Assembly (NCBI GenBank): GCA_944320405.1
Contig: CALUHI010000010.1
Coordinates: forward strand, 186,001 to 250,000
DNA from: an uncultured Eggerthellaceae bacterium
Lineage (GTDB): Bacteria > Actinomycetota > Coriobacteriia > Coriobacteriales > Eggerthellaceae
Length of the DNA: 64,000 nt
Direction of reading: 5' to 3'
Shown here one piece after another: positions 3,054-32,672 of this stretch (the first letter of the stretch is position 1; each line of letters begins with the position of its first letter). The notes under the pieces are model-generated. The model was not told the origin of the DNA, searched no databases, and saw nothing but the letters and a program-made list of their open reading frames with translations. A program made the position numbers and the translations under genes.

Positions 3054-3626
3054 TCACGCGAGCAGTCCGAGGTGCTCTAGGAGGATCTTCAGGCCGATGG
3101 CGATGAGGACGATGCCGCCGATGATGGTGGCGGGTTTCTCGAAGCGCGATCCGAACACGTGGCCCACGGCAACGCCCACAAGCGAGAGCGCGAACGTAAT
3201 GATGCCGATGAGCGCTACGGCCGGCACGATGTCAACCTGCAGAAACGCGAAGCTGATGCCTACCGCTAGCGCGTCGATGCTGGTGGCGATGGCGAACATG
3301 ACCAGTTCTTTCAAATCCAAACGCGCATTCTCGGCTACGGCATCTTCTTCTTCGTCATGGAAGGCATCCCAAAGCATCTTCGCACCGATGAAAGCAAGCA
3401 GAGCGAAGGCGATCCAATGGTCGACCGGTTCGATGAACGACTGGAACCCTGACCCCAGAAACCAGCCCAGAAGGGGCATGAGGGCTTGAAACCCGCCGAA
3501 AAACAACGCGATAAGCAGCGCTTGGTCCATGCGCAGACGTTTCATTCCCAGGCCTTTGCAGATGGAAACCGCGAACGCGTCCATCGAAAGGCCCACGCCA
3601 ATGAGCGCGAGCTCGACGATGCCCAT
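3054..3626 (-). CDS. mntP: MntP-family manganese efflux pump
   Basis: A 190-residue integral membrane protein of the MntP (DUF204) family, which exports Mn2+ and protects against manganese excess. Six hydrophobic segments are visible in two three-helix repeats. Each repeat carries the signature acidic residue in a matching motif: GVGLSMDAFAVSI near the N-terminus and ATSIDALAVGISFAF in the second half. The loop between repeats is acidic (HDEEEDAVAE). The start ATG follows GAGAGGGG; a GTG two codons earlier is also possible. Only about 44 bp separate it from the next gene upstream, so I see no riboswitch in front of it, unlike the TerC gene at 30.5 kb. Confidence 0.9.
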   Translation of the reverse strand: MGIVELALIGVGLSMDAFAVSICKGLGMKRLRMDQALLIALFFGGFQALMPLLGWFLGSGFQSFIEPVDHWIAFALLAFIGAKMLWDAFHDEEEDAVAENARLDLKELVMFAIATSIDALAVGISFAFLQVDIVPAVALIGIITFALSLVGVAVGHVFGSRFEKPATIIGGIVLIAIGLKILLEHLGLLA

Positions 3627-3670
3627 GCACACCCCTCTCGTCTTCTCGAATCAGCCTGAGCACGTCCCGG

Positions 3671-4570
3671 CTATGGAACGAGCACGTCTCCAACCTGGCG
3701 GAAAAACCCCTCAGCTAGCAAGTCGTTGACAATCGAGGAAGCCTCTCCAGGGTCGACTGCTTCCCTGCCTCCCCCCTTTTCCACTTGGTCAAGCGCTCGC
3801 AGCGCCTGCTTCACCGAAACGCCCTCTGCGCCAGCTGCAAGCACGATGCGAACGAGCTCCGCACGCTTCTGACGGCGCGAGCCCTCGAATTCGCTCTGCC
3901 GCGCGTGATGGGCACTGCGTCGCGATGGATTCGGCATCGTTGCCTTCAAATGCGCACCGTAGTCGAGCAGCGCATAATACCACGCACGCACGTCCTTCTG
4001 CGGACAAGACAACTCCACCAACGGCGCTATCTCAGAATCCTTCACGCCCTCGCGCCCCGGAAACAGCTCATGGAGGAACACCGTGCGGACGTTCGTTTCC
4101 AGGTAGAGGGAGGGCTTGTCGAAAGCGAACGCCACAACGCCAGCCGCGGTTGCCGGCCCGATGCCGGGCAGCTTCACGAGCTCATCGGCGGTGCTGGGAA
4201 GAACGCCCGCATGTGTGGCGGCGCACTCGTCGGCGCAGCGCTTCAACAAAAGCGCGCGGCGGTTGTACCCCAAGCCCTGCCACAACTCGAGCACATCAGA
4301 AGTGCTCGCTGCAGCAAGCGCATCGATAGTGGGAAACGCCTTCAGGAAGCGCGGCCAATAGCCCAGCACACGCTTGACCTGCGTCTGCTGAAGCATAACC
4401 TCGGAAACCAGCACGGCATACGGGTCGTGGATGCCGCGCCACGGAAGATCGCGGTAATAAAGCGCACCTTCGCGCTTCACTCGTTGAGAGAACTCGGCTA
4501 AGGATTGCCCGCCATCAGGCCAAACGGATGCCTCGGGCCTTCCCTTCCCGCTGTGCTTCGATGTTTGCAC
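3671..4570 (-). CDS. MutY-like HhH-GPD DNA glycosylase lacking the iron-sulfur cluster
   Basis: A 299-residue base-excision repair glycosylase related to A/G-specific adenine glycosylase. The MutY catalytic helix SEVMLQQTQVKRV is present with the catalytic Glu at residue 57, and the helix-hairpin-helix LPGIGPATAAG at about 134-144. Two MutY hallmarks differ. The conserved Asp in the LDGNVxR motif is Glu158 (LETNVRTV). The C-terminal 4Fe-4S loop has no cysteines between about residues 203 and 235. There is no NUDIX-like 8-oxoG recognition domain; the C-terminus instead resembles a small winged-helix segment. Start is GTG, 15 nt after the Rrf2 gene. It could act on another lesion than A:8-oxoG. 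Confidence 0.8.
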   Translation of the reverse strand: MQTSKHSGKGRPEASVWPDGGQSLAEFSQRVKREGALYYRDLPWRGIHDPYAVLVSEVMLQQTQVKRVLGYWPRFLKAFPTIDALAAASTSDVLELWQGLGYNRRALLLKRCADECAATHAGVLPSTADELVKLPGIGPATAAGVVAFAFDKPSLYLETNVRTVFLHELFPGREGVKDSEIAPLVELSCPQKDVRAWYYALLDYGAHLKATMPNPSRRSAHHARQSEFEGSRRQKRAELVRIVLAAGAEGVSVKQALRALDQVEKGGGREAVDPGEASSIVNDLLAEGFFRQVGDVLVP

Positions 4571-30459: not shown

Positions 30460-31575
30460 CTACTTGGATTCAGGTGTCTCGTACGTGGGCTCGCCATCGT
30501 GCGCATCCGCAGCCTCAACAAGCTCGGCGGGAATCTCGAGCGGCTCCCCCACTCGTTCACGAGCCGACGGGTTTTCATCCATGAGCTGCTTAAACGATGC
30601 AGCATCTTCGCCGGAAAGCGGCATCATCACGTAGACGTTCTGCCCGATGATGATGGGATGCATCTTCGCGGGAGCTTCCGCCTGCACAACCGGCGTCGTG
30701 TGGACAGCTTCGTTCTTAGCCTTCTCCAAGCGCTGCTCCATCTCGGCCTTCACGCGGTCGAGCTGGGCGTCGCTGTCCTCGCGCCAGCGCTGGGCCATCC
30801 ACGCCTTCAACGCGTAGTTGTAGCGCATCTGTATGAGTTCGAGCACGATGCAGAACACCATGGCGAAGTAGACCATCAGTTTCTCAAGCGGCATGTGCAG
30901 CATCTCGATGCCGGTGTGGAAGCCAGCCGCGTCGATGACCAGCAAGCAGCCGATGGCAACGATGAACGTGAGCGCGAGCATCTTCATTTCGGGATGACCG
31001 TTGATGAAGTTCGAGATGGGATCGATGAAGATCATCATCATGAACACGGCGAGCATAACCGCGATGATCATGATGATCAGGTGATCCGCCATGCCCACAG
31101 CCGTGATGACCGAGTCGATGGAGAACACGATGTCCATGACCATAATGGTGCCCACTGCCTGCGGCAAACCGATCATGTGCAGCGCCTTGTGCTCATCGGA
31201 ATGGTTCGCCTTGACCTCCGTCAACTTGAGCATGTCGATAACTTCAGCAATGCCCTTGTAGATAAGGTAGGCACCGCCCAGCAGAAGCACGATGTCGCGC
31301 ATCGAGAATCCGTGGCTATAGGGACCAAGATCAACCGTGAACAGCGCATCGGTCATATGCACGAGATACGATGCGAAGCACAGGAACAAAACGCGCATGA
31401 CCAAAGCGCCCGCAAGACCTAACTTACGACCAATGTGCTGCTGGTGCTCGGGCAAACGGTTGGTGGTAATGGAGATAAACACCAGGTTGTCGATGCCCAG
31501 CACGATCTCAAGGAAGATCAGGGTGACCAGGCTGATCCACGCCTCGGGCGTAGTGAAGATTGACAGATCGAACAA
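30460..31575 (-). CDS. TerC-family membrane protein under riboswitch control
   Basis: A 371-residue integral membrane protein of the TerC family. TerC proteins (Alx, MeeF/MeeY types) are linked to Mn2+ export and metallation of secreted enzymes. Signature elements are EIVLGIDNLVFI and DIVFSIDSVITAVGM, each with the intramembrane Asp, and PEHQQHIGRKLGLAGALVMR. A hydrophilic C-terminal tail of about 110 residues is predicted cytoplasmic. The start is taken as TTG at 31575 because AAGGAG lies 6 nt upstream. An upstream in-frame ATG falls inside the terminator hairpin of the leader. The leader carries a probable yybP-ykoY manganese riboswitch, which fits this family. Confidence 0.88.
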   Translation of the reverse strand: MFDLSIFTTPEAWISLVTLIFLEIVLGIDNLVFISITTNRLPEHQQHIGRKLGLAGALVMRVLFLCFASYLVHMTDALFTVDLGPYSHGFSMRDIVLLLGGAYLIYKGIAEVIDMLKLTEVKANHSDEHKALHMIGLPQAVGTIMVMDIVFSIDSVITAVGMADHLIIMIIAVMLAVFMMMIFIDPISNFINGHPEMKMLALTFIVAIGCLLVIDAAGFHTGIEMLHMPLEKLMVYFAMVFCIVLELIQMRYNYALKAWMAQRWREDSDAQLDRVKAEMEQRLEKAKNEAVHTTPVVQAEAPAKMHPIIIGQNVYVMMPLSGEDAASFKQLMDENPSARERVGEPLEIPAELVEAADAHDGEPTYETPESK

Positions 31576-31636
31576 CGAACGCTCCTTTTCCTCGACTCTC
31601 CTCAACGAGTGCGCGCCAGGGGCCAGCCAAACAAAA

Positions 31637-31770
31637 AGACCCATGACGCAAGACGCCTTTGCAAGACGTCCGCGCCATGGGTCTGGTTATTTCAGACACG
31701 CCAGACGCCGTTTAGCCAGCGTCAGGATGTTGACGTGCCCCATATGGGAATATGCCAACTACTCCCCCAT
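31637..31770 (-). promoter_or_regulatory. yybP-ykoY-type manganese riboswitch with overlapping terminator
   Basis: On the minus strand, upstream of TerC, the leader contains ATGGGGGAGTAG (from 31770), the conserved first loop of the yybP-ykoY (Mn2+) aptamer. A long arm follows with CACG-TCAACATCC-GACGC on one side and GCGTC-TGG-CGTG on the other, then CCAGACCCAT, whose CCCAT can pair with the initial ATGGG to close helix P1 (aptamer about 31677-31770). The same AGACCCATG (31676-31684) can instead pair with CATGGGTCT (31637-31645), forming a terminator followed by TTTTTGT. P1 and terminator are thus mutually exclusive, so metal binding should turn TerC on. Covariance-model confirmation was not possible here. 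Confidence 0.75.
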
Positions 31771-31850
31771 GAGCAAAAGCATCCTACCATGAGCCTGCTG
31801 CAGCGGCAATGCTATAATCGGCGAAGCACACAAACCCGTCAGGAGCCTTC

Positions 31851-32672
31851 ATGGACAAACCCTCATTCAATCTGTTCGACAAATTCGACTCGATTCTTTC
31901 GAAAGACGACATCACGCGCTACAGCCAGGGCGACGGCCCGGTCCGCTACATGGACGGCAGCTCGCTGAACCGCCCGATCACCATGCCAAAGAAAAAGCTT
32001 CCTATCGCTTTGGCGTTTGCGGCAGTAGCGGCTGTCATCGGTGTCATGCTTGCAATGAACCTGCTTGGATCGACGCTGCACGCCGCCCAACGTTCCGCTG
32101 CGAGCGTCGAGGAAAACCTTGCGCGCGAAGTTTCCCTGGACATACCTCTGATTTCCTCGTATGCCGGGATGGATGCTGCCACCATCAAGTCGTCTACGGA
32201 TTCTCTCGGCTTAAACGTCTACACAGTGTCAAGCGATGAAGACATCGCGGCCGGAAAGCTCGACATGGTGAAAATGCCCTCTGACGTGAGCGTTGAAGAA
32301 GGCGCGATGTACTACGCCCAGGGCATCAGCAACCTGGATGCACCCGATGCCGCACTCCTGCTCAACGGAATGTGGCGCCTCCAATTCGACTCGACGAAAA
32401 GCTTCAACCTGTCGATCCGTTACGCCGACTTCGATTCCGGCAATGTCGACACAGCAGTGGAAAACGCCATTGCGGCGCAAGGCTTCGATGCCTCAACTGC
32501 CACCGAGCTCGATGTCGACGACGCCGGAAACACGTTCCGTTCGGGGACTCTTGAAGCGGGCGGAGCCACGTACAACTGGCGCGTTTCCGCCATCGGGCTG
32601 GATGCCGTCTACGATATATCGGGGCTTCCCGACACTGCCATCTATGTTGGCGTGAGGATGACGGCTGCCTAG
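31851..32672 (+). CDS. single-pass membrane protein of unknown function
   Basis: A 273-residue protein I do not recognise. Residues 1-47 are polar and cytoplasmic. A single transmembrane helix (LPIALAFAAVAAVIGVML, about 49-66) follows KKK, and the remaining 200 residues should lie outside the cell. The outer part contains alternating strand and turn patterns, no cysteines and no catalytic motif. AGGAG lies 6 nt before the ATG, and a TATAAT hexamer occurs at 31813-31818. It is convergent with rsmB, with only 4 bp between stops. Residues 130-200 have a repeated Asp-Ala pattern, perhaps a lipid- or peptidoglycan-associated domain. Confidence 0.7.
   Translation: MDKPSFNLFDKFDSILSKDDITRYSQGDGPVRYMDGSSLNRPITMPKKKLPIALAFAAVAAVIGVMLAMNLLGSTLHAAQRSAASVEENLAREVSLDIPLISSYAGMDAATIKSSTDSLGLNVYTVSSDEDIAAGKLDMVKMPSDVSVEEGAMYYAQGISNLDAPDAALLLNGMWRLQFDSTKSFNLSIRYADFDSGNVDTAVENAIAAQGFDASTATELDVDDAGNTFRSGTLEAGGATYNWRVSAIGLDAVYDISGLPDTAIYVGVRMTAA

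Follow-up and report, generated by a model that had tools for sequence, protein, structure and literature searches.

The closest described relatives of the element reported here belong to the yybP-ykoY class of riboswitches. In Lactococcus lactis, it was shown experimentally that Mn2+ stabilises helix P1.1, the 3' segment of which otherwise joins a terminator, and that read-through results (PMC11087558); an adenosine of loop L3 is the Mn2+ contact in the crystal structure (PMC6754395). The member from Streptococcus pneumoniae mgtA is described in a review as a three-way junction (PMC9495176). As for the TerC family, the proteins of Bacillus subtilis are reported to serve mainly the metalation of secreted enzymes, with a minor role in Mn efflux (PMC10550928), and in Vibrio parahaemolyticus a Mn-induced terC is reported behind the same kind of riboswitch, with coverage data not pointing to termination (PMC13274385).

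Here we describe a leader in the window, i.e. the entire 64,000-nucleotide stretch of DNA analysed, from an uncultured Eggerthellaceae bacterium. It is very probably a Mn2+-sensing yybP-ykoY riboswitch that turns the transcription of terC ON.

Layout of the terC leader

On the minus strand, an extended -10 is followed by the aptamer, a terminator hairpin, a U5 tract, a Shine-Dalgarno sequence and terC. The features are listed below, with evidence from the 24 related leaders described in the next section.

31804-31809 (-), -35-like hexamer TTGCCG, 17 nt ahead of the -10 (consensus match 4/6)
31781-31786 (-), putative extended -10 (TGG-TAGGAT), same spacing in 23/24 leaders
31675-31772 (-), whole candidate Mn2+ (yybP-ykoY) aptamer with P1.1, P1.2, P2 and P3.1/P3.2, without P4 (RF00080, custom model R1, covariation)
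31766-31772 (-), P1.1 5' strand TCATGGG, 96.4% of cells paired across the 24 leaders, two-sided changes present
31759-31767 (-), L1 consensus GGGGAGTAG, invariant in 24/24 leaders, which were gathered with that pattern
31675-31681 (-), P1.1 3' strand CCCATGG, doubling as the terminator 5' arm (covariation and terminator-overlap analysis)
31638-31683 (-), predicted intrinsic terminator hairpin, ~21 bp, -34 kcal/mol (folding)
31633-31637 (-), U-tract (T5), from sequence
31587-31582 (-), Shine-Dalgarno AAGGAG, from the sequence ahead of TTG 31575
30460-31575 (-), terC, 371 aa from TTG (Pfam TerC, NCBIfam, N-terminus alignment)

On this strand CGTCAACA comes after GGGGAGTAG, AGACCCATG is located at 31684-31676 (-), and CATGGGTC at 31645-31638 (-) is followed by T5 at 31637-31633. 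An earlier sequence-only reading had placed the element at 31637-31770; the element is present, but the right end at 31770 drops the first two bases of P1.1, and the downstream string given there as CATGGGTCT, found together with T5, already counts the first T.

A -10-like hexamer recurs at -19 to -21 from GGGGAGTAG in 23 of the 24 leaders, with a TG extension in 22; judging from this conserved spacing, the RNA probably begins at P1.1, near 31774 and within a few bases of the helix. ATTGC of the -35 region is conserved among the closest terC leaders, and the -35-like hexamer of the window is below the scan threshold. Promoter and terminator scans of the window with default consensus sequences found nothing, because the -35/-10 elements match at 8/12 positions and the hairpin is unlike the form used by the scan; these elements were assigned by hand. 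GCTCATGG recurs upstream (31793-31786), where it overlaps the -10 region and is not expected in the transcript. Near the riboswitch promoter is TGCTATAAT, the putative extended -10 of a divergent gene (31851-32672, +), whose 273-aa product has no Pfam or NCBIfam match and, by eye, one likely membrane segment.

The target gene is established as terC, as had been read from the letters alone: its product has a Pfam TerC domain (152 bits, scored on the longer ORF), and R_switched_YkoY, although below the model cut-off, is the best NCBIfam match. To call it an exporter was too firm, and we avoid that word because the TerC proteins of B. subtilis are reported mainly for enzyme metalation (PMC10550928). 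In relatives, terC begins at an aligned codon, (M)FDLSIF or MDLSIF, that is preceded by a Shine-Dalgarno sequence, and from this aligned N-terminus we take TTG 31575 as the most likely start. The ATG at 31644 (394 aa, from the ORF list) was rejected, because it falls within the terminator and would add non-conserved residues.

Class, structure and distribution of the aptamer

The RF00080 search proposed in the sequence-only reading returned a match at 31779-31611 (-) when the window was searched with permissive Rfam settings (E 5e-9), though at 37.8 bits it falls short of the RF00080 gathering score of 45 bits, which is a curation threshold and not a biological feature. The match is therefore absent from the default Rfam scan of the window, which found two tRNAs only. 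The gap says little, given that the Escherichia coli mntP leader, with 41.6 bits in the same Rfam library, is likewise under the cut-off. Rfam helix 87-93/170-176, the P4 site in E. coli, has no paired bases in the window alignment, and by this alignment would account for part of the shortfall. In the whole genome (a draft of 92.8% completeness) the leader was the sole RF00080 match at E <= 10 (E 8e-9); no riboswitch target other than terC was found there. The Eggerthellaceae custom model R1, in which the window leader is itself included, gave 87.8 bits. Together with covarying helices and intact core loops, the RF00080 match upholds the assignment to the yybP-ykoY Mn2+ class.

Leaders were collected from 138 Eggerthellaceae genomes with the pattern GGGGAGTAG-N18..48-CGTCAACA, which was present in 23 of them and, when reversed as a control, in 0. 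The gene downstream in the window, terC, counts as a Mn-homeostasis gene, and in relatives it is mntP or terC (13 and 11, respectively, of the 24 distinct leaders). Copies occur in Raoultibacter timonensis, Slackia isoflavoniconvertens, Slackia exigua and Candidatus Aphodovivens avistercoris, the last being identical with the leader of G206, which belongs to the same genus as the window. L1 GGGGAGUAG is present in the window (31767-31759), also inside the Rfam alignment, as is L3 CGUCAACAU, in which the Mn2+-discriminating adenosine was assigned with UCA41 of L. lactis as the reference. Both L1 GGGGAGUAG and the L3 discriminator UCA are found in 24/24 leaders, and the motif UCAACA with this adenosine is invariant; as the collecting pattern fixes L1 and part of L3, it accounts in part for the invariance there, but it places no constraint on the helices.

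The leader folds at -80.6 kcal/mol (z = -6.3), with 0/200 shuffles as good, and P1.1 comprises 7 bp (31772-31766 with 31681-31675), all 7/7 intact in the window. When P1.1, P1.2, P2, P3.1 and P3.2 were scored in the alignment of the 24 leaders (A1), 94.4% of cells were paired and 16/26 pairs had two-sided changes; cells with such changes numbered 96 vs 31 in shuffles, 0-1/500 shuffles were as good on any measure, and slid-partner controls were 31-49% paired. A wider set of 59 sequences, in an alignment fitted to the model, was 94.6% paired with 23 two-sided pairs. The predicted helices P1.1, P1.2, P2 and P3 are thus supported by strong covariation in 24 relatives, and we regard the aptamer structure as established.

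P4 and the four-way junction of the solved structures are absent from the window aptamer. Almost all Coriobacteriia have a 5-nt joiner between P3 and P1.2, and from L3 to the end of P1.2 the aptamers of the order span 18-19 nt (18 in the window comparison) vs 33 nt in E. coli mntP; these aptamers are therefore three-way junctions. P4 is not obligatory for yybP-ykoY, and a new class was ruled out, because a three-way-junction member is already described (PMC9495176). It is unlikely, in our opinion, that the P4-less Coriobacteriia aptamers are a large subgroup with metal selectivity or affinity unlike that of the four-way type, so that their terC and mntP leaders sense different levels of Mn2+ or else a divalent ion other than Mn2+.

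RF00080 was detected in 8/197 genomes of the order, 0 over the cut-off, with the stricter filters of a many-genome search, and R1 matched 120/396 Coriobacteriia genomes at E <= 1e-4; the R1 E-values are rough owing to short calibration, and the two surveys cover different samples. The Rfam model seems to miss many aptamers of this lineage. Coriobacteriia loci L001-L091 are Mn aptamers without P4 (5-nt joiner) and lie under the RF00080 cut-off across the order. E. coli alx matched neither R1 nor RF00080 and was dropped as a comparator. Titles and abstracts yielded no relevant literature on a manganese riboswitch in Eggerthella.

The window's own mntP (3054-3626, -) sits ~45 nt after an HhH-GPD/MutY-like gene (pair 3054-4570) and has no riboswitch before it. 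In the syntenic sister genome G131, a Mn riboswitch (L014/L097) lies between the same two genes; G206, like the window, has a short gap with no riboswitch. It seems that two of the three species have lost the mntP riboswitch or never gained it, loss within the genus being likely. Eggerthellaceae mntP leaders have a hairpin competing with P1.1 and then a separate terminator, and those in other families of the order have a direct P1.1-terminator overlap. The competing hairpin (GCGGTG...CACCGC in L004, L005, L014, L022 and other mntP leaders) has no good U-tract, and a relay between it and the terminator is possible in L005, L022 and L028.

Terminator overlap and the proposed switch

The P1.1 3' strand CCCATGG (31681-31675) is the foot of the terminator (31683-31638), and the two pairings are mutually exclusive. 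The competition between P1 and terminator noticed in the sequence-only reading is thereby borne out in the window, and the shared strand is conserved in most Eggerthellaceae terC leaders examined. With a strict rule (>= 6/7 positions paired with the P1.1 3' strand, immediately ahead of a T-run) the overlap is found in 12/18 terC leaders, and L025, with a one-base offset, raises this to at least 13/18. Base changes are matched in the terminator: at alignment column 131, C goes with G in the window, L002 and L013, and U with A in L010, L012 and L024; at column 134, U goes with A in most leaders and C with G in L012. Enforcing P1.1 in folding abolished the terminator in 7/7 terC leaders tested with such a layout. 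When the P1.1 3' heptamer was permuted, a complete partner next to a T-run turned up in 357/20000 cases (1.8%), a background against which the real window stem extends over ~21 bp and recurs in relatives. We regard both the exclusive pairing and the conserved overlap as established. A similarity to TEG147 at the terminator (E 0.51) was judged a chance match to the CCCAUG/CAUGGG hairpin.

The same AGACCTTTGG/CCAAAGGTCT overlap of P1.1 and terminator, with a T-run, was seen in L092 and L094 from other Actinomycetota, where the product of the next gene has an N-terminus resembling, by eye, UPF0016/GDT1 proteins. The terC leaders L017, L029, L030 and L031 are without a P1.1-linked terminator and U-tract; a possible pairing over the start codon or Shine-Dalgarno sequence in L017 and L029 suggests translational control, swapped within the same gene family.

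In the mechanism we propose, RNA polymerase would start at ~31774 and make the aptamer first. At high Mn2+, the ion would bind between L1 and L3 and stabilise P1.1, strand 31681-31675 would be held, and with the terminator unable to form from its base terC would be transcribed; at low Mn2+, this strand would zip into the downstream hairpin and transcription would stop at U5. Thermodynamics alone prefers the terminator by ~14 kcal/mol, and the full-leader MFE includes it; on these folding energies the switch would have to be decided co-transcriptionally, as would be expected for the class. We infer Mn2+ as the ligand, the switch direction and the start site; with its parts in the same relation as in L. 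lactis, the window leader is best read as an ON switch.

A yybP-ykoY relative that still turns terC ON, but in response mainly to a metal other than Mn2+ (Ca2+ or another divalent ion), is quite unlikely: although altered-specificity variants are suspected in the family (PMC7266159), the S. pneumoniae mgtA three-way-junction member is reported to bind Ca2+ tighter than Mn2+ (PMC9495176), and the Coriobacteriia aptamers likewise have no P4, the L3 adenosine giving Mn2+ its soft contact is kept, and the same aptamer precedes mntP, a Mn efflux gene, in Eggerthellaceae. It is hardly credible that sensing was lost altogether and that a plain attenuator or constitutive terminator stands behind a decayed aptamer, since the helices covary across genera, P1.1 has all 7/7 pairs and the core loops are intact, even if a terminator so stable (-34 kcal/mol) and part of the full-leader MFE would fit such a view. 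Translational regulation, instead of or alongside transcriptional, could be argued from the four terC leaders without a P1.1-linked terminator (L017, L029, L030, L031), of which L017 and L029 can hide the start region; in the window leader, however, the terminator is complete, its U5 lies ~58 nt ahead of the start codon, and no pairing to AAGGAG was noticed, so that we hold this for very unlikely. The transcriptional, Mn2+-sensing ON switch is the reading we prefer.

Comparison with known systems

The window element is essentially an ordinary member of the Mn2+-riboswitch class, for which the mechanism is already established. Through it the Mn2+-riboswitch regulon gains terC and mntP from Eggerthellaceae and further Coriobacteriia, a gut lineage, in which nearly all such elements are missed when annotation relies on the Rfam cut-off (0/197 genomes in the order vs 120/396 in the class with the lineage model).

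The E. coli mntP leader is found by R1 at 27 bits and is likewise below the Rfam cut-off, but has a P4 hairpin and 33 nt in the interval where the window has 18. With S. pneumoniae mgtA, likened by description, the window element shares a three-way-junction yybP-ykoY aptamer, whereas the gene is another one and Ca2+ binding is reported (PMC9495176). The B. subtilis meeY (ykoY) leader is also a Mn-responsive riboswitch ahead of a TerC-family gene (PMC10550928), and R_switched_YkoY is the best NCBIfam match of the window protein; the host lineage is distant, however, the match is below the model cut-off, and the leaders are likened by description. L. lactis yoaB differs in its four-way junction with P4 and in its P-type ATPase gene, where the window has no P4 and terC, but has in common with the window element a UCA-type L3, a P1.1 switch helix with its 3' strand in the terminator stem, and a transcriptional ON mode of action (PMC11087558, PMC6754395), which in the window is the most probable one.
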